IMG/VR virus record: IMGVR_UViG_3300039707_000002
Location: 1 to 28,565 of that record
Length of the DNA: 28,565 nt
DNA from: a virus
Reading direction: 5' to 3' (one strand)
Shown here: positions 2,788-24,846 of the stretch, piece after piece
How positions within the stretch are numbered: position 1 is the stretch's first letter
Layout of the letters: every line of letters starts with the position of its first letter
Notes under the pieces: generated by a model
What the model saw: the letters and a program-made list of their open reading frames with translations, nothing else
The model's database searches: none
Told to the model about the DNA's origin: nothing
Position numbers and translations under genes: made by a program

Positions 2788-3336
2788 TTAGTGTACGTGT
2801 TTCCACTCCAGGTTATTTAGAACCCTCCGAACCTGGGACGGATGAATCCCATACTTTTTGCTAAGCGCAGTACTGCCATGAGTTAGAGAATAAGGCACAT
2901 ACTCTTCTCGCATAGCTTTTACCCTAGCTTCATCAAGCTTACACTTGCTGTGAGTAATCCCTCGCTGAACTGTCCTTCCATGCCGATCACGATCAGCCAT
3001 GTTCTGGATATGTGTTCCGTAATAGAGATTACCTATCCGGTTATTCGTGGGATCACCGTCCTTGTGACATCTCTCCATCCCAATAGGACAAGGACCAACG
3101 AAAGCCTCTAGCGACAACTTGTGTACAACCTGTGTACGTGTACCATTCTCATTACTCAAACAGACAACGACGTAATTATCCTTATGTTTGTCCGAGTACA
3201 GGCTAAAGTACCGCTGCTTCCTCCGTTTTCCGGCCCTATCTATCCAACCTTGCTTACTCCTTACTCTACCGAAGCTACTAACTTCGTAGTTAGGATAGGT
3301 AGCGATAGTACGCCACATCTCCTTTTCTTGGATCAT
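2788..3336 (-). CDS. Free-standing HNH homing endonuclease (NUMOD4-HNH_3 type)
   Basis: 182 aa. Residues 5-27 (KEMWRTIATYPNYEVSSFGR) match the NUMOD4 module that often leads phage HNH nucleases. Residues 71-108 form an HNH_3 core with H72, H91 (MERCHKDGDPTNNR), N99 and N103 in NLYYGT. The C-terminus (STALSKKYGIHPSQVRRVLNN) is a helix-turn-helix-like DNA-binding segment. Such enzymes cut intron- or gene-lacking alleles and spread by repair. The ATG at 3336 overlaps the scaffold-like gene stop (ATGA), and the gene sits in the middle of an essential structural operon, typical of homing genes. It appears intact. Confidence 0.93.
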   Translation of the reverse strand: MIQEKEMWRTIATYPNYEVSSFGRVRSKQGWIDRAGKRRKQRYFSLYSDKHKDNYVVVCLSNENGTRTQVVHKLSLEAFVGPCPIGMERCHKDGDPTNNRIGNLYYGTHIQNMADRDRHGRTVQRGITHSKCKLDEARVKAMREEYVPYSLTHGSTALSKKYGIHPSQVRRVLNNLEWKHVH

Positions 3337-8203: not shown

Positions 8204-10591
8204 TCAATAGCCCGTTACCTTGTTCCTCGTGTAGTTATAGTTATTATCCTCAAAGTCATCATCATAGTCGTCTTCAAAGCCAAGAAGACCTGTGCCGAAG
8301 ATGCGAGTGAAGCTGTACTGCAGGGCATCATGGAGATGGCTGTAGCGGTTCTTGTCGGGAATCTCAGTATACCGATTACCACCACCACCTATGTTGATAC
8401 GACGGAACTGATACCCGCCGATAAACCCACGTCTGAGGATACGACACCGTGGATGCAGGACGAACTGCGGCTTACCGGACATTAAGGTACGCAACGGTTT
8501 TCTCACACACTCTAGCCGCATCTTTAGGGTAATCATTCCAGGCTCAACCGGGATACCCCTAGCAGCCATTATCTCATAACAGGTTTTCTCGTCTGTCTGC
8601 ACTCTCTGCGAACCAGCTGGATCACCAATGTAAATGAACTCCCTATCGCGGAAGTGCAAGTTGTTATGAAGGATAAGCTCATCGGTGAAACGCTCGATAC
8701 CCATTCCGGTAGCGCTCAGTTCATCGAGAACGAGGCATTGCCCACCAGGGACAACCTGGGTATAGGTTGCTGCTGGAGTTAGTCCGAAATCGAGACCGAT
8801 AAAGATCGGATAACCCTCAATCGACTGACACTCTTTGCAGTGGATATCGTCGTTATACTCGTCATAAACCGGACGGCCATCGGTGACGAAATCGTATTTA
8901 CCGTGTATGTAGACGTTGGTCCAGGTCTGACTTTTGCCTATCGAGAGGCGTTCGTAGTACTCTCTGCCATTCGGTAGATTGGTTACATTCTCAGCGTTCT
9001 CAGCGAGGCCGGACGGCTGACGGAAAATGTTGCGGAACTCTATAGGGTGATCTTCTTCTTCAAAGAAGCGGTACCAATCGGAGTCGGTGTCCGGAGGGTT
9101 AGTGTCGAGGATAAGACCGGACCATGTTGGGCCGCCTTCGCGTTTCGGCGGAAACTGGCCAACACGGCCCTGAATAGCCTCAATAACAGGCCAGGGGACT
9201 TCTCGTGCTTCGTTAACCCATGCACCTGTCAACTCCAACGATAAGAGTTTCGACATGTGGTCCGGACGATCGAGAGCACGGAATAGGATTTCTATTTCAG
9301 TATTTTCAAAGGCGTTGATGTTGTATTCGTGTTTGTAGTCGATCCATTCACCAAACAGTCTCGGCGGAAACCATTGGTGGAATGTCTTGATCGTCGTGTC
9401 TCTGAGTTCACCATATGTTTGGCCGCACCAAACTGCTTTACCATTACGGCGAACATAAACTACATGCGACGATACAGTCACACAGTAAACCATACCGTCG
9501 TAATCATGCCTATACCAACCTTGCTTCGTGCTCGGTTCCCGACGCCGACTCGTTACAAAGGTCATGGTATAGATAAATTCTCGATTGCTCCAATGGCTGG
9601 ACATCTTCTGTCTTCCGACAGTAACAACCATACCAGCACGTAGAGCAAGTTCTTGAATATCGTCGGCTAAACGTTTTGAGACAGTCGTAGCGATTACTGT
9701 ATTAATATCCTTATAGACCTGACCATCCCCCTCTACATAACCAATTAAGAATTCTCGTATAGCCTCCCATGAAGAATCCTTAATCCATTGAGGTATATGC
9801 TTCTCGTGTGATTTACCAAGTTCAGTAAGTTCCTCGACTAAAGGCTTAATATCAGGGGTTATCCTGATAACAAAATTCACAGACGATGAGGCTATATGTC
9901 CAGATTTTGACTCTATTTCACTGAATTGTAGTCCAGCCCTGTTCAAAAGGTCACGAGTATAGTCTAATCTGGTCGATTGAACACCAGCATAACCCTCAGC
10001 AAACCAGAAACCGAGAAACTCGTAGAAGTCTAACGAGAATTCAGGTCTTTTACCACGCCACAAGGCATCCCGTTTAAATCGTCTAGTCTGTTTACCATAG
10101 ATTTCAGAAATCGTCTCATGCCTATAGGGATGCCAGATTTTCGTGTCTGTACTCTGCCGACTTGTCCACAGTTTGTGATCTGGAGTAACTAGAAGATCAA
10201 TTCCCTGATGCTGTATACCTAACATCTCACCTTTATACGGAGCAGCATAATGGTAACTCGGTTTCTCAAATACGAGGTCCGTACCATTTTGTAGCGTAGC
10301 TACTCTGTCATCCTTATCTAAATCACGAAATAAAACCCAGCCACGTTCCTCCGTCAGAATCTCAGTCTGATCGTCATAGCAGTTTCGGACGACCATCCAT
10401 CGCGTACGACGTACACCGTCCATCGTGCTGGGCTGCTGAGCCATACCACGACGGATTAGCTCGATCACACACCCACTAGATTTACCACTTCGGAAGGGAC
10501 CGATTAGACCACGGATGAAAGCGTCAGAACGTGCGAACTCGCGGATTGTTGGTACATCAGAATAGGAGTAGCGGATTTGGGGAGACGGCAC
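8204..10591 (-). CDS. terL: Terminase large subunit with an in-frame intein
   Basis: 795 aa: 474 aa of terminase plus a 321-aa intein at residues 71-391. Terminase motifs: Walker A GPFRSGKSS (31-39), the conserved RWMVVRN/TYGELRDTTIKTF segment that the intein splits, a Walker B-like LTGAWVNEAREVP, and a C-terminal RNase H-fold nuclease with PIFIGLDFGLTP, IYIGDPAGS and the HLHDALQYSF helix. It is the ATP-driven motor and headful or site-specific nuclease that packages DNA through the portal. After splicing, 474 aa matches the usual family size. The start is GTG (10589-10591), placed immediately after the TAA of the preceding gene, consistent with coupling. Confidence 0.95.
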   Translation of the reverse strand: MPSPQIRYSYSDVPTIREFARSDAFIRGLIGPFRSGKSSGCVIELIRRGMAQQPSTMDGVRRTRWMVVRNCYDDQTEILTEERGWVLFRDLDKDDRVATLQNGTDLVFEKPSYHYAAPYKGEMLGIQHQGIDLLVTPDHKLWTSRQSTDTKIWHPYRHETISEIYGKQTRRFKRDALWRGKRPEFSLDFYEFLGFWFAEGYAGVQSTRLDYTRDLLNRAGLQFSEIESKSGHIASSSVNFVIRITPDIKPLVEELTELGKSHEKHIPQWIKDSSWEAIREFLIGYVEGDGQVYKDINTVIATTVSKRLADDIQELALRAGMVVTVGRQKMSSHWSNREFIYTMTFVTSRRREPSTKQGWYRHDYDGMVYCVTVSSHVVYVRRNGKAVWCGQTYGELRDTTIKTFHQWFPPRLFGEWIDYKHEYNINAFENTEIEILFRALDRPDHMSKLLSLELTGAWVNEAREVPWPVIEAIQGRVGQFPPKREGGPTWSGLILDTNPPDTDSDWYRFFEEEDHPIEFRNIFRQPSGLAENAENVTNLPNGREYYERLSIGKSQTWTNVYIHGKYDFVTDGRPVYDEYNDDIHCKECQSIEGYPIFIGLDFGLTPAATYTQVVPGGQCLVLDELSATGMGIERFTDELILHNNLHFRDREFIYIGDPAGSQRVQTDEKTCYEIMAARGIPVEPGMITLKMRLECVRKPLRTLMSGKPQFVLHPRCRILRRGFIGGYQFRRINIGGGGNRYTEIPDKNRYSHLHDALQYSFTRIFGTGLLGFEDDYDDDFEDNNYNYTRNKVTGY
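9419..10381 (-). mobile_element. LAGLIDADG intein within terL (321 aa)
   Basis: Starts at Cys71 (CYDDQTEILTEERGWVLF, splicing block A) and ends at Gln391 before Thr392. Block B has T66 and H69 of the intein (LLVTPDHKLW). Homing blocks: FLGFWFAEG (122-130) and FLIGYVEGDG (211-220), the two LAGLIDADG helices with acidic residues E129 and D219. The C-terminal splice block ends VWCGQ, followed by Thr. The terminal residue is Gln, not Asn, and the penultimate is Gly, not His. The insertion lies in the highly conserved RN/TYxELRDTT segment next to the ATPase site, a typical intein target. Rejoined exteins read continuously. Confidence 0.93.
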
Positions 10592-13233: not shown

Positions 13234-13262
13234 TTGACAGGAGAAGCATTTTGCGTTATCAT
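13234..13262 (+). promoter_or_regulatory. Sigma70-type promoter, copy 2, heading the long plus-strand operon
   Basis: TTGACA (13234-13239), 17 nt, TATCAT (13257-13262), 45 nt before the ParB-like gene ATG. Shares the conserved spacer bases with copies 1 and 3. All plus-strand genes from 13307 to the terminator at 23629 are co-directional with no clear internal terminator seen, so this may drive about 10 kb, including the repeat arrays. Confidence 0.9.
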
Positions 13263-13306: not shown

Positions 13307-14149
13307 ATGATCGGCGCGTTGAATAATTCTACCCTAGAACCCATCTACAAACGGCGCAGTCAGCGTGAGCCGCAGCACTACCCGACACTGATCAATAAAC
13401 CGGGTGAGTTGGTAATGCTGCCAAAAGCTGATCTACAAATCGACACAACGTACCAACGTCCAGTCAATCTCAACGCCGTTCGCCGCATCGCAGCTAATTG
13501 GAATTGGGTTGCATGCGGTACGCTGCTCGTCTCGGTACGCACACACTCCTACTTTCTAGTCGATGGTCAACATCGATGGGAGGGTGCCAAGCTACGAGAG
13601 GAGATCGTGGAGCTACCCTGCCTCGCGTTTGAGATTAACGACGTGAAGCAAGAGGCAATCGGGTTCCTAGCTGCGAATACAGAGCGACGGTTGCCCTTAA
13701 TGATACATAAATTCAATGCGCTGTGTGCGATCGAAGATCCCCACGCATTGATCGTCGCTGATCTTGTAAAGCAGTCAGGACGACTGATCCGGGCACAGAC
13801 CGGGAAACAGTTCATCTCGTGCATAGGCGATTTGATGCGGTGCGTGAAGACAGATCGCGCGGCCATCGAACGTCTATGGCCTATGATTATCAAAATGGCG
13901 AAAGACGAACCGTTGCCCGGTCATCTCATCAAAGGTCTGTTCTACTTAGAGCGGAAAATGATGAATGACGTTAGCCTGAGTGATCCACGGTTGCGTAACC
14001 GTATCGAGGACATTGGGCTAAAAGGGTTCCTGGACTCGATCAAATTGCAAGCTCACTTTGAGAGCAACATGAGCGAAAAAGTTTGCGGACAGGGTGTCTT
14101 GCGAGCGATAAACCGAGGTAATAAAGCACCCCTCCGCGCTAACCTGTAG
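13307..14149 (+). CDS. ParB-like nuclease-domain protein
   Basis: 280 aa, good Shine-Dalgarno (AAGGAG). Residues 35-125 read as a ParB/Srx-type domain: a strand LVMLPKADLQIDTTYQRPVN, then VACGTLLVSVRTHSYFLVDG, and the DGQHRW box (86-91) with WEGAKLREEIVELPC after it, the nucleotide-binding signature of the ParB family. The C-terminal half is helical and ends in a basic tail. No ParA partner is visible. Phage ParB-like proteins of this size without HTH are commonly uncharacterised nuclease or CTP-binding regulators rather than partition proteins. First gene behind promoter copy 2, so likely early. Confidence 0.85.
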   Translation: MIGALNNSTLEPIYKRRSQREPQHYPTLINKPGELVMLPKADLQIDTTYQRPVNLNAVRRIAANWNWVACGTLLVSVRTHSYFLVDGQHRWEGAKLREEIVELPCLAFEINDVKQEAIGFLAANTERRLPLMIHKFNALCAIEDPHALIVADLVKQSGRLIRAQTGKQFISCIGDLMRCVKTDRAAIERLWPMIIKMAKDEPLPGHLIKGLFYLERKMMNDVSLSDPRLRNRIEDIGLKGFLDSIKLQAHFESNMSEKVCGQGVLRAINRGNKAPLRANL

Positions 14150-15531: not shown

Positions 15532-15703
15532 CTTTGCTCGCCGTACTAAAAATCCAGTTACCGGGGAGTTCCAGAGCGCCGTCTGGATAGACCACGGAGT
15601 TAGAGGATACGAAGTCATTTTTCCCATTGGGCATAGTTATCGAGACGATGCTCACGAGTGGGAATTTGAAGACGAAATAACACCAAAGGAGCAAAAGAAA
15701 TGA
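15524..15703 (+). CDS. Small hypothetical protein (59 aa)
   Basis: 59 aa, start ATG 15524 (AGGA upstream, overlapping the previous stop). Reads MSNFARRTKNPVTGEFQSAV then WIDHGVRGYEVIFPIGHSY, with an acidic end. Looks like a small beta-rich domain of about 50 residues. The stop overlaps the start of the TAXI-type gene by four bases (ATGA), so it is translated together with it. Unknown role. Confidence 0.7.
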   Translation: MSNFARRTKNPVTGEFQSAVWIDHGVRGYEVIFPIGHSYRDDAHEWEFEDEITPKEQKK

Positions 15704-16557
15704 ACGTGTTCACCACTGCCACGGCTATCGCCATGGTGTTTTCGTCAGCAGCCTATGCGCAGAAACCCTCAATCAATGTCTGCACCGGACCGGAGGGCGG
15801 TAACTACCAGAAAGCCGTCTTTGAAGTCATGAAGCAGGCTAAAGAACGGATGGACGTTAAGCCAATCGACAGCAAAGGATCGATCGACAGCTTAGACAAA
15901 CTAGCATCCGGAGCCTGTGACATCGCACCAATCCAGAACGATGCGATGCTTGTCTACAAAAAGAAGTACGCTAAGGATGCCGGCAATCTGGAGAAGGCCG
16001 GGACGCTCTATAAGGAGTATGTCCATCTAGTCTGCAATCGTAAGTCCGGGATCGGACGGGTGACAGACTTAATGGGTAACAAACACCGTGTAGCCGTTGG
16101 TCCTGGCGGCTCTGGAAGCAGCGTCACGTGGGACTCTTTTATCTTAGCTGACAAACGCTACGGCGAGGCTCCAACCGTGCCGCTCGCCGGTCTGCGTGCG
16201 CTAGAGAAGGTTAAGATGGGTGATGAAGTCGCTTGTATGATCTTTACGGCAGCACTCAACTCGTCCTTCGTAACCACTAACATGAGTGAGGCCGGTAGTT
16301 ATGTGCAGCTAATTAAAGCGAATGACGGGGATTTTGACACAGCTAAAGATGAGCGTGGTGTGTCGATTTATACCTACGACACCATACCGAGTAAGACTTA
16401 TCCAAAGCTGCAGGATGGGTCTGTCCGTACCGTGGTTGTCGATGCTTTGTGGGTAGCACGTGGGGCGTTCATCGACGAGAAGGAGAAGCTCTACAACTAC
16501 TTCCTGGAAGCAAAAAACAAGGCCAGCCCAGAAATCAAAAAGATGGTGGGGCAATGA
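15700..16557 (+). CDS. Secreted TAXI-type (TRAP transporter) solute-binding protein
   Basis: 285 aa. Residues 1-20 are a Sec signal peptide with an AYA/Q cleavage site. The mature part begins INVCTGPEGGNYQKAVFEVM, the TAXI-family signature (GGxYY/Q near the N-terminus), with SIDSLDKLASGACDIAPIQN, and VAVGPGGSGSSVTWD (the G-x-x-G-S-G-S/T motif contacting the ligand) followed by a helical end. TAXI proteins bind organic acids or amino acids in the periplasm and hand them to a TRAP permease; no permease gene is near. The gene is in frame and full length for the domain (family about 300-330). Homologous carriage by a phage is unusual. Confidence 0.88.
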   Translation: MNVFTTATAIAMVFSSAAYAQKPSINVCTGPEGGNYQKAVFEVMKQAKERMDVKPIDSKGSIDSLDKLASGACDIAPIQNDAMLVYKKKYAKDAGNLEKAGTLYKEYVHLVCNRKSGIGRVTDLMGNKHRVAVGPGGSGSSVTWDSFILADKRYGEAPTVPLAGLRALEKVKMGDEVACMIFTAALNSSFVTTNMSEAGSYVQLIKANDGDFDTAKDERGVSIYTYDTIPSKTYPKLQDGSVRTVVVDALWVARGAFIDEKEKLYNYFLEAKNKASPEIKKMVGQ

Positions 16558-19271: not shown

Positions 19272-19495
19272 AGGGTGAATTAAGAATTGATATGATTGTT
19301 GCAACTGACGGCCGCGTTCGTGGGAAACAAACAAACCCTGAAACTGGCGAAGTGCGCTTCACCCTTAGTGAATACCGGTCAGGCGTTTCAGGGCAGTGAC
19401 GAGCGGTTGACAACGGAAAGCCTCGGTTGTTTGTCATGCAAGTTGACCTAAAAACCGGCGATACGGAATTGCAGCCGGTCACGTTCGATCCCTAG
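19268..19495 (+). pseudogene. Small gene split by one in-frame TGA, next to the repeat array
   Basis: From GTG 19268 (overlapping the previous stop; an in-frame ATG is at 19292) the frame runs 43 codons (contains TNPETGEVRFTLSEYRSGVS), TGA at 19397-19399, then 31 codons (KPRLFVMQVDLKTGDTELQP and a few more) to TAG at 19493-19495. Both parts have similar beta-strand and ETGEVR/KTGDTE turns, as if halves of one small beta-rich domain. It is the second neighbouring gene with a single in-frame stop, here TGA rather than TAG. Either decaying genes or stop-codon readthrough. It ends 7 nt before the array begins. Confidence 0.55.
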
Positions 19496-19502
19496 GAGAC
19501 GG

Positions 19503-21764
19503 GAGTACCAAGTTTCTCGTGAGAGTCACATCATATGTGAGAACCAATCAAGCGGAATGAGTCAAATGATTAGGGTGAACCAAAGGTTTGGAATGAGTCA
19601 GATGGCAAGGTGAGTACCAAATATGTTGCACGAGTCAATAACCGTACGAGTACCATTCCTTGAGAACGAACTAGGGGCCTAACGAATACCAAAGTTCTTG
19701 GGTGAGTCAAAGGTAATGGGAGCACCAGAAGATACAACACGGAACCGTCACTTAGGTGAGAACCATTGAAGAAGAGTTAACCATAAAAATGGCGAGTACC
19801 AAAAGTTCCTTGGGTGAGTACATAAATCGGGTGAGGACCCTAACTGGACAAACGAGTCAAAAGCGGAAAGAGAACCAAATGTCTCATACAAGTCACAACC
19901 TTTCTGAGAACCAGGAAGTCATGGACGAGTCACAATAAGCGTGAGTACCAAATATGTTGCACGAACTACATATGAAGTGAGTACCTATGGAAACGAGTTA
20001 GCCATAAGTAGGCACGAGTACCATTAAATATGCGTGGGTCATTTCCAGAGTGAGAACCATGATCGAAAAACGAGCCGTTGGGTGGGAGAGAACCAAAGAC
20101 GATAGAGTAAACCAAGACGAGGACGAGAACCACTAGGGCTCATGTTAACCAAAGACGAGACGAGTACCACTGCAGGCTAGGTAATCCAAAGACGAGACGA
20201 GTACCACTGGTACGAGGACCAACACCTCTGTACGAACCATTAGGTACGAGAGAACCAATTCGCGAGAGCGAGTCACCTAGTTGACGAGTACCAATGACTT
20301 CGCATGGCTTTAGGCGAACCATTTAGCGGTGTGAGTACCAAACCGCATGGGTGAGTCTTGAAATGATTGAGTACCAATTGAATGGTACGGAACCAAATGG
20401 AATTAGGGAACCATGGCGTTGTGTGATCCAGGTGGTAGATGAGGACCGGACAACAGTGTGAGAAGCCACGACCGAAAAGAGTACCATAACACGCAGAGGT
20501 GAATCATAATGAGGGTGGGCGCCAAATCCAATAGATGGAACCATCGAACGGATGAGGACCAGATAAACAGACGTGAACTACATTAGATGTAAGAACCACA
20601 GGGTAAGGGTGTGAGTCGTTCTCCTGGCGAGTTCCATTGGATGTGAATGAGTCACTGACTACGAGGGGACCATTGATCATGAACAATCCATGTCTCCCGT
20701 GGGGACCAGATAATTTGCGTGAGCCAAGATGAGGTTGAGAACCAAATCGCCATACGTGAGCCATGGAGTGAGATGAGAACCACGGATGAAGACGTGAGCC
20801 ATCTGGTTTCTGAGTACCATTGAATAGATGCGAACCAAGATGAGCGAGAGGACCAATACCAGTAGTGTGAGCCAATATTCGGGTGAGAACCATCGCTTTT
20901 GGGTGAGTCAAAAAATCAGTGTGTACCAGGGGGTAGAGAATGAACCTTGAACGGAACGAGGACCAGAAACCTAAAGTGAGTCATAAAGATCGGGAGTTCC
21001 ACCGAATGAAGTACGATCCAATCTCGACAAGAGAAACCATTAAGCGAACGTGATCCATTGAATGTGTGAGTACCAATTAGTCCGGCGTGAACCGTAGACA
21101 TAGGGAGTACCAGCGCATCTGCGTGAGCCATCTTGCCGGTGAGAACCAAACAAGGTATGTGAACCAAAATCGCTGTGAGCACCAATCCAGACATGTGCGC
21201 CATTGATCACGGGAGTACCATCACACGAATTGTGAGCCATGGGTGGCATGAGAACCACACAATGTGTGTGAACCATCTGGTTTGTGAGTACCATTATATG
21301 TGGGTGTGAGCCGATGGCTGGGTGGGTACCAGTATGTACAGAGTAAACCACTGATGGAGTAGCGGACTATCGGAGACGAGTTAACCAGCAGAGAAATGAG
21401 GACCAAAAAGCTGACGTGAACCAAAAATAGGGTGAGTACCATAATAGGTATGTGAACCACTGAAACGGGGGGGGGTACCAGAAACTCCATGCGTTTTGAA
21501 CCACTCACGTTACAGCTATAGGTGATCCATGATACTGTAGAGTACCAGTGACCATGGGTGAACCATGAAGAGGTCGAGTACCATTACGCATGAGTTAACC
21601 ATTCGCGAAGAGAGCACCAGGACTGACATGTGAACCAATCAGTGAAAGTGTACCATAAGACGAGAGTTAACCAAAGAATCGGGGGGTACCAGGGTAGCCA
21701 CGTGAGCCAGAAGGGGAATGAGTACCAAACAACCACGGGTGATCCACGCAATCTTAGAGTACCA
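19503..21764 (+). repeat. Array 1: about 123 copies of an alternating 8-nt motif every 18 nt
   Basis: Starting with GAGTACCA at 19503, a motif ending in CA recurs every 18 nt (17-21 in places, rarely 15, 23, 26 or 28) up to 21764. By hand I count about 123 copies. Two forms alternate: A = GAGNACCA (N is T, A, G or C) and B = GTGARYCA (GTGAACCA, GTGAGCCA, GTGAGTCA, also GTTAACCA, GTGATCCA). The 10 or so nt between motifs are not conserved, so it is not a usual tandem repeat. Some larger copies exist: 19610-19633 equals 19941-19964, and 20149-20172 equals 20186-20209. No convincing gene lies in this interval. Confidence 0.95.
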
Positions 21765-21779
21765 AATATGATGAGATTT

Positions 21780-21816
21780 CTAGACTTGTCTAGTCCGGGT
21801 AATCTTTATGATTACC
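21780..21816 (+). promoter_or_regulatory. Two short hairpins between array 1 and the first DUF6197-like gene
   Basis: CTAGAC-TT-GTCTAG at 21780-21793 and GGTAATC-TTTAT-GATTACC at 21798-21816, just after the array ends. The second is a perfect 7-bp stem. No T run follows, so it is not a clear terminator; it could be an attenuator, processing site or RNA-protein site separating the array RNA from the coding RNA. Confidence 0.5.
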
Positions 21817-21852
21817 TGTATCATCATCGCCAAACTGAAAAGGGAGCTACAG

Positions 21853-22257
21853 ATGCCGTTTGACGGAACCGACTACAAGCCCAGCCAGTTAGTGTTGGAT
21901 TTGATGGCGGCCAGGGATTACCTGGATGAGAACGGGTGGTGTAAGGGACAGCTTACGGATGGCCCTCGGCGTTGCCTTGTTGGAGCAGTACGTCAGGTTG
22001 TGCTTGGTGATGCTCACAAGAAACTCGTCACGAAGAATGGAACCTATGTGAGGGATAGTAAGCGTTGTGTTGTTGCTGAGCAGACAATGCATAACTACCT
22101 TAATGAACATATGTTCCCTCACTGGATCGGTTACCCGATGGAAATAGCCCGGTGGAATGACCGTCAGGAAGACTACGCTCCAATACGTACCTTTCTCGAT
22201 CGGATGATCGAGGACGAATTAGCCAAGAATATGGTGAGCACCAACGAAAGTAAGTAA
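21853..22257 (+). CDS. DUF6197-like protein, paralog 1 (134 aa)
   Basis: 134 aa. Start ATG 21853 (AAAGGGAGC upstream); the frame opens earlier at 21808 without a ribosome site. Key residues: LDLMAARDYLDENGWCKGQL, then RRCLVGAVRQV, and at the end WNDRQEDYAPIRTFLDRMIE. This GWCxG...RRCLxGA...(W)NDxxxxxxxxIxxxLDxxI pattern is that of DUF6197, a family of unknown function found in actinobacteria and phages. Shares its start (ATGCCGTTTGACGGAA) and layout with the gene at 22730. Its last codons and stop lie inside array 2: TAA 22255-22257 is part of a GTAAACCA unit. Confidence 0.8.
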   Translation: MPFDGTDYKPSQLVLDLMAARDYLDENGWCKGQLTDGPRRCLVGAVRQVVLGDAHKKLVTKNGTYVRDSKRCVVAEQTMHNYLNEHMFPHWIGYPMEIARWNDRQEDYAPIRTFLDRMIEDELAKNMVSTNESK

Positions 22258-22679
22258 ACCATAAGATAAGTGAGTACCATGATTAGAGGGTGAGACACGT
22301 AGATGGTGAGTACGTGGTCTTGCCGTGAACCAAAAAGCTTGTGAGTACCAAAATTGAAGGGTGAACTAGGTTGATCTAGCGAGGACCAAAATCTCCGTGT
22401 TAACCATAGGATGTGAGAGTACCCAATATTTAGGGTGAGCCAAAAGAGGAATGAGTACCGTGGCGAGGAAGTTAACCAGAAGGCGGATGAGTACCAACCC
22501 TTGATACGTGACTCAAGCGAACGATGAGCACCAACCTATTTGAAGTAACCATTCTGACGCGAGAGCACCAAAAGAGTAGAGTGAACCCTAACCTGGGGGA
22601 GTACCATTGGTTTTGTGTGAACCAATTGTACGGTGAGTACCAAAACCAATAGGTGAGTCAAATTGATGAGTGAGTACCA
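22236..22679 (+). repeat. Array 2: about 25 copies of the alternating 8-nt motif
   Basis: Same A/B alternation and 18-nt period as array 1, from GAGCACCA at 22236, which lies inside the preceding gene, to GAGTACCA ending at 22679. Spacers again are not conserved. The next paralogous gene starts 50 nt later. No open frame of note in the interval 22258-22729. Confidence 0.93.
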
Positions 22680-22729
22680 TAAGGTGTAAACGCTCAACAA
22701 CCAATAAGTATCTACAAAGGAGAATGAGA

Positions 22730-23086
22730 ATGCCGTTTGACGGAAATCCGGGCAAGAACACAGCGCTATCTCAGGTTGTGTTAGACCTAATCGCTGCACG
22801 CGATTATCTCGATGAACACGGCTGGTGTAGTGGTAACTTAATACAAGGTGAACGGCGGTGTCTGATCGGAGCTATCTATCAGGTTACCGACTCATTCAAT
22901 AAGCGCCCTCTTAACCACCCAAACGCGCAACGCGCAGTAGTAGCTATAAAGGTGTTAGAAGCACAGATCAGGGAAACAACCAGACACCCTAATGTCTACA
23001 CCTTTAATGACCAACCACACCGTACGTATAGGCAAATCCATGACATCCTTGATTTAACCATCAAGAATGAAATGGCAAAAGCATAA
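22730..23086 (+). CDS. DUF6197-like protein, paralog 2 (118 aa)
   Basis: 118 aa. Start ATG 22730 with strong Shine-Dalgarno (AAAGGAG, 22716-22722). Pattern as in the paralog at 21853: QVVLDLIAARDYLDEHGWCS, then ERRCLIGAIYQVTDSF, ending FNDQPHRTYRQIHDILDLTI. It is 16 residues shorter, lacking part of the middle. The identical 16-nt start and closely similar first half point to a gene duplication; the array between them may have been duplicated or inserted with it. DUF6197 has no known function. Confidence 0.82.
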   Translation: MPFDGNPGKNTALSQVVLDLIAARDYLDEHGWCSGNLIQGERRCLIGAIYQVTDSFNKRPLNHPNAQRAVVAIKVLEAQIRETTRHPNVYTFNDQPHRTYRQIHDILDLTIKNEMAKA

Positions 23087-23116
23087 AACAACAACACAAC
23101 CAAAAGGAGCACAAGG

Positions 23117-23356
23117 TTGGCAGCAGAACCTGTAAGCACATCTGCACGTTCATTAACCAGACCAATTGTAGAGGAAGTCTACATCTGGGTAAGCATAAAG
23201 CCGGATGGACATGAAACGATCGTTGCCGTAGACGGCAACTATCTGATCTCATCCAATGAGCATGTTGCCTTAGCCTATCAGTACACATTACCCAAGGACA
23301 ACAGTAAGTTCAGGCTAATCAGACTCAGCACTAGGGCTATACTGATCGACTGCTGA
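23117..23356 (+). CDS. Small hypothetical protein following paralog 2 (79 aa)
   Basis: 79 aa. Starts at TTG 23117, chosen because AAAGGAGCACAAGG lies just upstream; no ATG is available near the start. Contains VEEVYIWVSIKPDGHETIVA followed by VDGNYLISSNEHVALAYQYT, a regular beta-sheet pattern ending with ILIDC. No family recognised. Same direction and spacing as the DUF6197-like genes, so part of the array-gene cassette. Confidence 0.75.
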   Translation: MAAEPVSTSARSLTRPIVEEVYIWVSIKPDGHETIVAVDGNYLISSNEHVALAYQYTLPKDNSKFRLIRLSTRAILIDC

Positions 23357-23547
23357 TATACCACAAGACGAATAATGGTTATACCATGATCGTAATGGTG
23401 TAAACCAGAATGTCGAATGAGTAAAACCAGTGATTGTAGTGAGTACCAGAAACTAAGGGTGAACCAGGGTTGTTATGAGTACCAGTCCGGGGAATTAGGC
23501 AAGAGTAACCAGAGTAGTGTGTGAACCAGTAACCAATTTGAGCACCA
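23354..23547 (+). repeat. Array 3: about 10 degenerate copies of the alternating motif
   Basis: Motifs ending at 23363, 23386, 23407, 23429, 23448, 23466, 23484, 23511, 23528 and 23547. Spacing is less regular than in arrays 1 and 2 (17-27 nt), and units such as GTAAACCA, GTGAACCA and GAGCACCA are kept. This looks like a decaying end of the system. The terminator follows 80 nt later. Confidence 0.85.
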
Positions 23548-23588: not shown

Positions 23589-23628
23589 CCATGCGCTATT
23601 CACATGTCAGTTAGACAAAAGTGACTAG

Positions 23629-23668
23629 GACCGGGGATCAAGAACAAACTCCCCGGTCTGTTCTTTTG
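23629..23668 (+). terminator. Intrinsic terminator of the plus-strand operon
   Basis: Perfect 9-bp stem GACCGGGGA (23629-23637) with TCCCCGGTC (23650-23658), loop of 12 nt, followed by TGTTCTTTT. Strongest terminator of the window and the first one after promoter copy 2 in the plus direction. It would end the transcript that carries the small genes, the arrays and the DUF6197-like genes. Confidence 0.92.
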
Positions 23669-24327
23669 GTTATTGATAGAACACACTCCAGGTTCGTCTC
23701 CGACGAGACCTAGACGTTCCGATCACTAACGTGCTCGGAGCCGTCTTCAGGTTAATTTTAAGGAAATCAGACTACAGAATTTTCCGACCATGTGATCTGT
23801 GTATTGAGACCGGGGGCTATGTATATCCTAAAGTAGGTAAACCTACCATAGTAGGTAAACTGTGATAGGTAAATCAAGGAAATTTATCTGGTGTTGGTGT
23901 TGGAGATTAGTACGGGTGGGTAATCTTGTATAGGATAAGTTACCGAATTTTACTGGTTCTGGAGGTAGGGATTAAGAGACGGTGGATAGGTAAATTTAAC
24001 AGAAATTGTTGGTGTCCTTCAGGCGGATTAAGCCCCCCGTGGTAGGCACAGTCAACCGTACCCACTCTTTGGGGTAGCCGGGTAGGCGATACCGTTTACG
24101 GTAGTGACTTAACCTCAGTCACTAACCACTAGCAACACTGTCACTACCGCTCAGTGTGTCACTACCACTTAGGTGATGCATGGGTATAATGGCAGTGACA
24201 GTGTGGTACAATACCAAGGGCTCACGTAGCGCGTTCCTAGCGTCTGTGAGTAGCTGAAAAGAAAACCGGGCAGAGATGCCCGGCTTCTGAGTTCATCGCG
24301 TTGTAGCGCGTTCCTAGCGCGTTACAG
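23669..24327. promoter_or_regulatory. Intergenic repeat region, possible origin or control region
   Basis: No gene is supported here. It contains a strong hairpin at about 23688-23709 (AGGTTCGTC with GACGAGACCT), a cluster of TAGGTAAA at 23834-23841, 23852-23859, 23866-23873 and 23987-23994 (the first within the palindrome GTAGGTAAACCTAC, 23833-23846), GTCACTAC elements in both orientations at 24101-24108, 24118-24125, 24140-24147, 24158-24165 and about 24192-24199, and two copies of TAGCGCGTTCCTAGCG near 24227 and 24304. Iteron-like clusters of this kind are common at replication origins and regulatory regions; which applies is not known. Confidence 0.55.
24257..24283 (-). terminator. Intrinsic terminator after the 172-aa basic protein gene
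   Basis: Perfect stem CCGGGCA (24266-24272) with TGCCCGG (24277-24283), 4-nt loop. On the minus strand it is followed by TTTTCTTTTC (A run at 24257-24265). It lies 45 nt downstream of the stop of the minus-strand gene at 24328. Confidence 0.88.
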
Positions 24328-24846
24328 CTACCACGTAGCGCGCATGCTTAGATTTGCGATGCATCGCTTAATCTGAGCCTCAGTCTTGATCCCAGCCTTA
24401 AGCATCATTTCCAAGGTCTGACGTGTATCGTTCGCGAGCGTACGAATGCTCGTGTCTTTTACACTGTTGACCTTCATCGCCTTAGCTGTAGCAGCCACGA
24501 GTGCCTTACCGTTCGTTTTGCACTCAGACTTGAACATCATGAGCTTAGCCGTGGCGTACACGCCGTCAGCACTGCGCCGCGTGCCGACTTGCGCATTGAT
24601 CACTTTTGCCTTGTCGTCAATCGCAGCAAGTTCAGCTTTGATCGCATCCATCTTCGCCTTGGCTGCTGCACGTTCTGCTGCTACCGCTTTCTTGTCATCC
24701 ATGGTGAACGCTTTCTTCGCGGCGTTGCTCTGCTTCGTGTTCGTCAGATTGCGCGGCTTGCGTGGCGCTTTCTGCGGCGCAGCAGTCTCGGTGCCGGGAA
24801 CGGCAGCAGTCTCGGAAACGGTCGTGTTCGTGTTCAGATCAGACAT
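24328..24846 (-). CDS. Basic helical protein (172 aa)
   Basis: 172 aa from ATG 24846; an in-frame GTG at 24855 is also possible. The first about 50 residues are Thr/Ala/Pro/Asn-rich and disordered (SETAAVPGTETAAPQKAPRK), then a long Ala/Lys helix (DDKKAVAAERAAAKAKMDAI), then a C-terminal domain with SECKTNGKALVAATAKAMKV and DTRQTLEMMLKAGIKTEAQI. Strongly basic. General layout resembles nucleoid-type or single-strand-binding accessory proteins, but no family is recognised. A second 172-aa protein with a similar layout is at 27780-28298. Flanked by its own terminator. Confidence 0.75.
   Translation of the reverse strand: MSDLNTNTTVSETAAVPGTETAAPQKAPRKPRNLTNTKQSNAAKKAFTMDDKKAVAAERAAAKAKMDAIKAELAAIDDKAKVINAQVGTRRSADGVYATAKLMMFKSECKTNGKALVAATAKAMKVNSVKDTSIRTLANDTRQTLEMMLKAGIKTEAQIKRCIANLSMRATW

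Follow-up and report, generated by a model that had tools for sequence, protein, structure and literature searches.

A very large dual-repeat TIGR array on a phage genome fragment without a visible tas gene

Layout of the locus

The viral DNA analysed here, IMG/VR virus record IMGVR_UViG_3300039707_000002 (28,565 nucleotides (nt), hereafter the window), carries about 155 short motifs, all on the plus strand and arranged as three blocks (19485-21774, 22218-22690 and 23400-23547). We conclude that this element is almost certainly a dual-repeat TIGR (Tandem Interspaced Guide RNA) array, the template for 36-nt guide RNAs (tigRNAs). Such arrays are a known kind of element and not a categorically new system; what sets this one apart is its very large size and the lack of a visible tas gene on the fragment. 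The features of the locus are as follows.

19485..21774, + strand: TIGR array block 1, about 122 repeats and about 61 tigRNA units (autocorrelation, pattern and chaining model)
about 19485-19492, + strand: start of block 1, a weak, degenerate edge repeat TCGATCCC (by eye)
19503-19510, + strand: first loop repeat of block 1, GAGTACCA
21757-21764, + strand: loop repeat at the end of block 1, followed by spacer AATATGAT and a 3'-truncated edge repeat
22218..22690, + strand: TIGR array block 2, about 25-26 repeats and about 13 tigRNA units (pattern and chaining model)
22218 and 22236, + strand: first repeats of block 2, ATTAGCCA and GAGCACCA, overlapping the 3' end of DUF6197 gene 1
23400..23547, + strand: TIGR array block 3, 8 irregularly spaced repeats (pattern matches at 23441-23466 and 23503-23528, the rest by eye)
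23400, 23419, 23441 and 23459, + strand: block 3 repeats GTAAACCA, GAGTAAAACCA, GAGTACCA and GTGAACCA
23477, 23503, 23521 and 23540, + strand: block 3 repeats GAGTACCA, GAGTAACCA, GTGAACCA and GAGCACCA
23628..23670, + strand: probable rho-independent terminator, a 10-bp G+C-rich hairpin and then TGTTCTTTT, 80 nt past block 3
21853..22257, + strand: DUF6197 gene 1 (134 aa), between blocks 1 and 2; Pfam PF19698, E = 3.5e-14
22730..23086, + strand: DUF6197 gene 2 (118 aa), between blocks 2 and 3; Pfam PF19698, E = 2.6e-18
23117..23356, + strand: 79-aa open reading frame (ORF) without a match in Pfam or PHROG, after DUF6197 gene 2 and ahead of block 3

The regularity of the array, first noted from the sequence alone in the original prediction, is well above chance. 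Over positions 19503-21775 the autocorrelation peaks at lags 36 (0.382) and 18 (0.377), compared to a mean of 0.262 (standard deviation 0.028), and both values exceed the highest reached at any lag by 200 mononucleotide shuffles of the same stretch (0.299). Block 2 peaks again at lags 18 and 36. Allowing up to 3 mismatches, the pattern GAGTACCA-N10-GTGAACCA matches 36 times on the plus strand and 0 times on the minus strand, compared to one match per strand for the reversed control. A coding tandem repeat was rejected, as no long open frame runs along the array; the motif itself gives rise to the many minus-strand ORFs inside the array, which are seen again in other array loci.

The same prediction counted about 158 eight-nt motifs at 18-nt steps, with fixed spacing and unrelated spacers. 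The count and the three blocks stand, but the repeats are longer and the unit is twice as large. Using a two-motif chaining model over the window, we found two repeat kinds in strict alternation (42 + 80 motifs in block 1 and about 25 in block 2; the 8 of block 3 were counted by eye). By information content each kind is 10 nt long: repeat A reads RNGAGTACCA (GAGTACCA type) and repeat B reads RNGTGAACCA (GTGAACCA type). Because position -2 is also conserved (a purine in about 87-90% of copies), each repeat takes up 10 nt and leaves mostly 8 nt (range 8-10) for the spacer. Since the two repeats alternate, the true unit is 36 nt and not 18. Each 36-nt unit is one two-spacer tigRNA, and the window array contains about 75-80 of them. 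Fixed spacing largely holds after GTGAACCA-type repeats, where the gap is 10 nt in 62 of 71 cases, but not after GAGTACCA-type repeats, where it varies from 9 to 12 nt. Likewise, the spacers are mostly unrelated except for three identical 8-nt pairs inside the window, compared to 0.22 expected from between-contig pairs.

Both repeat kinds end 3' in CCA, and box D is GN here, not UG. In blocks 1 and 2 the first repeat is of the edge type, and at the far end a loop repeat is followed by a spacer and a truncated edge repeat. The terminator-like hairpin is found only after block 3; it folds at -20 kcal/mol (z = -2.4) and is absent from a consensus terminator scan that takes loops of at most 8 nt only.

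Relation to TIGR arrays and tas genes

TIGR-Tas systems perform RNA-guided DNA targeting and are unrelated to CRISPR (Faure et al. 2025 Science, PMC12045711). Published dual-repeat TIGR arrays have two alternating 8-12-nt repeats with CCA (box C) ends and box motifs common to both kinds, and 36-nt processed guides, with spacers of 9 nt in the modal case and up to 12; truncated edge repeats lie at both ends, followed by a rho-independent terminator (PMC12045711). The window array resembles the dual-repeat arrays associated with TasA in its alternating CCA-ended repeats, short free spacers, 36-nt unit, phage setting, truncated edge repeats at the ends and terminator, and its sister arrays adjoin TasA genes homologous to the solved TasR and TasH. 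Unlike published arrays, which usually have 5-15 units, it is several times larger, is split into three blocks with DUF6197 genes between them, has no tas in the 28.5-kb fragment, and combines 10-nt repeats with mostly 8-nt spacers and degenerate edge repeats.

A pattern of three consecutive motifs, searched over IMG/VR, yielded 31 stretches, nearly all of them long arrays. The array-contig counts leave out G022, G023 and G024, which match the pattern but have no tas and look like short tandem repeats or unclear arrays, and count G001 and G002, near-copies of G006 and G013, once among distinct contigs. An all-against-all protein comparison found one protein family directly adjoining the arrays in 13 loci. 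Besides the window, a TasA-like (Nop-domain) gene is present in 17 of the 19 distinct array contigs (E from 3.5e-35 to 3e-141), mostly within about 100 nt of an array. No tas is present in the other two, G019 and G009, the latter a 4-kb contig with an array that reaches its end. These Tas proteins match the PDB entries of TasR (9mty, E = 9.8e-17) and TasH (21kl, E = 8.6e-11) as well as the Pfam IS110 family Transposase_20.

The association across phages holds in the other direction too. A TasA profile retrieved 430 relatives in IMG/VR, and an array is present in all 79 further viral TasA loci fetched, 74 of them on contigs that the array search had not already found. For genome tas loci, whose record titles name Propionivibrio, Halomonas, Acidobacteria and others, arrays are found at 15 of the 18 strongest. 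Among 40 shuffled controls for both sets of loci, none has an array. The array motif is nearly constant from phage to phage, and within most contigs the first two positions are the same in edge and loop repeats.

The original prediction had read conserved motifs with free spacers as an array bound by a protein. This idea finds its place in the TIGR family, with the repeats as box C/D-like Tas sites and the spacers as guides. Its further claim of an undescribed phage element falls with the 2025 publication of TIGR arrays (PMC12045711). Kink-turn, sarcin-ricin and CsrA-type readings were dropped once the Tas genes were found.

Other guide systems share single traits with the array. CRISPR is likewise a repeat-spacer guide array in which whole units are gained and lost, but it uses a single repeat of about 25-36 nt where the window has 10-nt repeats of two alternating kinds and two spacers per guide; no cas-like match, including adaptation genes, was found among the window proteins scanned. 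IS110 bridge RNAs and box C/D small nucleolar RNAs have in common a Nop-domain protein and a two-part guide RNA, whereas the TIGR array is regular and multi-unit and has no transposase or methyltransferase partner.

By analogy with published TIGR-Tas work, we expect a single long transcript of the array, running from left to right and stopping at the terminator near 23.66 kb. Both repeats would be bound, at box C (CCA) and at their box D-like ends, by a Nop-domain protein of the TasA type supplied in trans. Cuts within edge repeats would then give 36-nt tigRNAs, each made of half an edge repeat, a spacer of about 8 nt, the loop repeat GAGTACCA, a spacer of 8-10 nt and half an edge repeat (GTGAACCA type). 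On a Tas dimer the two spacers would pair with opposite strands of one DNA site, and the target would be bound and bent in a way that keeps it from being transcribed, replicated or maintained; rival mobile elements are the probable targets. Binding and bending are likely rather than cleavage because TasA has no nuclease.

In contig G014 (L031, 3805-5739) the TasA gene encodes 644 aa with an insertion of about 250 aa just before the GIGPV motif; the insertion is intein-like (Pfam Intein_splicing, E = 1.8e-4, below the curated cut-off).

Turnover of units and target search

Natural targets and guide acquisition are stated open questions for TIGR-Tas (PMC12045711). We aligned arrays of phages with related TasA (L187-L265, for example L256-L259, L191/L192/L194 and L239/L241) and examined the internal even-length blocks that were gained, lost or replaced. 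In 150 of 156 cases such a block begins at an edge spacer and ends at a loop spacer, and in 6 it has the opposite phase, a count in which phage pairs overlap, so that blocks are not fully independent, and which excludes 99 odd-length blocks, mostly single-spacer substitutions, as uninformative on phase. The spacer after B and the spacer after A change as one guide; B (GTGAACCA) is therefore assigned as edge repeat and A (GAGTACCA) as loop repeat. The ends of window blocks 1 and 2 agree with this assignment, with a weak first edge repeat in block 1. The opposite assignment, with GAGTACCA as the edge repeat, was overturned by this strain comparison.

Arrays change by whole tigRNAs and fast relative to tas: among L256-L259, some arrays share only 2-6 of 12-47 units at 97-98% tas identity. 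Duplication accounts for part of the change. Exact spacer duplicates within arrays exceed expectation, in several contigs by a factor of ten or more, and L241 has one unit more than L239, a copy of one already present. Most of the change, however, involves units that are not copies of others in their array: only 1 of 60 single-unit blocks has a near-copy there. The whole-unit change, its speed and the rarity of copies from the same array give part of an answer on guide gain, and the 430 TasA relatives make spacer origin directly testable.

Targets were sought as spacer 1, a gap of 0-2 nt and the reverse complement of spacer 2 (geometry derived from PMC12045711), using 2104 units, 70 of them from the window. 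The 3.0 Mb searched comprised the units' own phage DNA, that of relatives and that of other phages with arrays. At gap 0 there are 6 exact sites, compared to 1-3 in four shuffled-pair sets, and sites with one mismatch show no excess over shuffled pairs in this DNA. The window unit with its edge repeat at 20940 (TGAACGGA / GAAACCTA) has one exact site in L228, which is unconvincing alone. A self-target seemingly conserved in G001 and G006 was dropped, these contigs being near-identical copies.

No visible tas gene on the fragment, and neighbouring genes

Several observations weigh against a working TIGR array served by a tas gene elsewhere in the same phage genome. No tas was found in the six frames of the window (hmmsearch --max) or in 35 records with a relative of its portal protein, and no spacer has a convincing target in the 3.0 Mb searched. 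The spacers are mostly 8 nt, compared to the published mode of 9 (SpTIGR has 16 nt of spacer per guide; PMC12045711). Edge repeats in the window are the least conserved of the contigs compared (9.2 bits versus 10.5-16.6) and its spacer lengths the most irregular, a comparison that is only suggestive because the detector was trained on the window and picks up its degenerate repeats better. Part of the window array may be decaying.

Nonetheless, we consider it probable that tas lies on the missing part of the genome and acts in trans, since the window is incomplete and arrays of its relatives can sit far from tas. The window is a linear fragment, and phages with related portal proteins measure about 46-50 kb; an annotated Alcaligenes phage has a long series of further genes beyond its capsid gene, and it is near this gene that the window starts. 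Some arrays of related phages lie 10-60 kb from tas: G017 has about 60 kb between an array and the only tas seen, G008 about 40 kb and G020 37 kb. Exactly one tas is found in the part read of each array contig of at least 40 kb. As no tas stands beside the window array, we class it as a TIGR array and not as a complete TIGR-Tas system. With this locus, the family gains a dual-repeat array of very large size and an example of an array detached from tas.

An unlikely alternative, though one to be taken seriously, is that the array is a relic, inherited without tas, non-working and slowly decaying. The lack of tas within 28.5 kb, the weak edge repeats and irregular spacing would fit such a history, as would the portal-protein relatives, which lack tas and also show no array in the stretches fetched. 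Against it, the loop repeats keep 12.2 bits while the spacers differ, the array ends and the terminator seem intact, and sister phages combine remote arrays with distant tas genes, the window being a fragment.

It is quite unlikely that the phage truly has no tas of its own and carries a helper-dependent or decoy array, possibly with a role for the DUF6197 genes that lie between the blocks. That the array is served by Tas from the host or a co-resident phage, as a dependent of this helper or as a decoy soaking up a rival's Tas, we regard as very unlikely. Tas-free array contigs do exist (the window and G019), and the near-constant motif makes the use of a foreign TasA conceivable; yet tas-free phages look rare given the single tas of every longer array contig, and both tas-free contigs of useful length are fragments. 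G019, a 30.8-kb contig of L030, has its TIGR array in the interior (22138-22575).

The two DUF6197 genes, which have a common start context ATGCCGTTTGACGG, sit exactly between the three blocks, but there is little chance that their products are a new partner in place of Tas. The association expected from the original prediction does not recur: among 21 other array records DUF6197 is present in 2 (G002/G013, two copies of one phage), and there over 12 kb separate it from the nearest array. The proteins have no similarity to the Tas profile, and L009 encodes a DUF6197 relative and has no array. DUF6197 was therefore rejected as array partner; its genes probably ride along on the transcript as passengers and are not an established component of the system.

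An array of double-stranded DNA sites (iterons, centromere or origin) for ParB-like or ribbon-helix-helix (RHH) proteins can practically be dismissed: the window does encode a ParB-like DUF6551 protein and a small NikA-like RHH protein, but DUF6551 is found in 0 of 21 other array records, which also removes it as a partner, the motif lies only on the sense strand of adjacent genes and usually also of tas, and the two-way Tas link and the alternation with gain and loss of 36-nt units argue for a TIGR array. Plasmid and phage iteron or centromere arrays share direct repeats at regular steps, but the window array has far more copies, alternating motifs on the sense strand only, and a link to Tas and not to a replication or partition protein. 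The operonic tasParB-tasA TIGR arrays (PMC12045711, fig. S14) have 10-nt repeats as here and a ParB-like protein. In the window, however, about 5 kb with other genes separate the array from the DUF6551 gene upstream of it, a gene that the other array contigs lack.

The DUF6551 gene (13307-14149, plus strand) is followed by a helix-turn-helix gene, and ahead of the DUF6551 gene, at 13234-13262, lies the sigma-70-like promoter that ranks best between 13 and 24.4 kb. To the right of the array, a gene-poor region (23832-24345) contains short direct and inverted repeats (AGTAGGTAAAC, TGTCACTACC and the 17-nt GTAGCGCGTTCCTAGCG) and is possibly a regulatory or replication region. Elsewhere in the window, the terminase large subunit gene (8204-10591, minus strand) has an intein-like insertion with a LAGLIDADG homing endonuclease domain, and a NUMOD4-HNH homing-endonuclease-like gene (2788-3336, minus strand) lies within the capsid gene cluster. 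Finally, an NMT1/TAXI-like solute-binding protein is encoded at 15700-16557 (plus strand), an unusual cargo for a phage.

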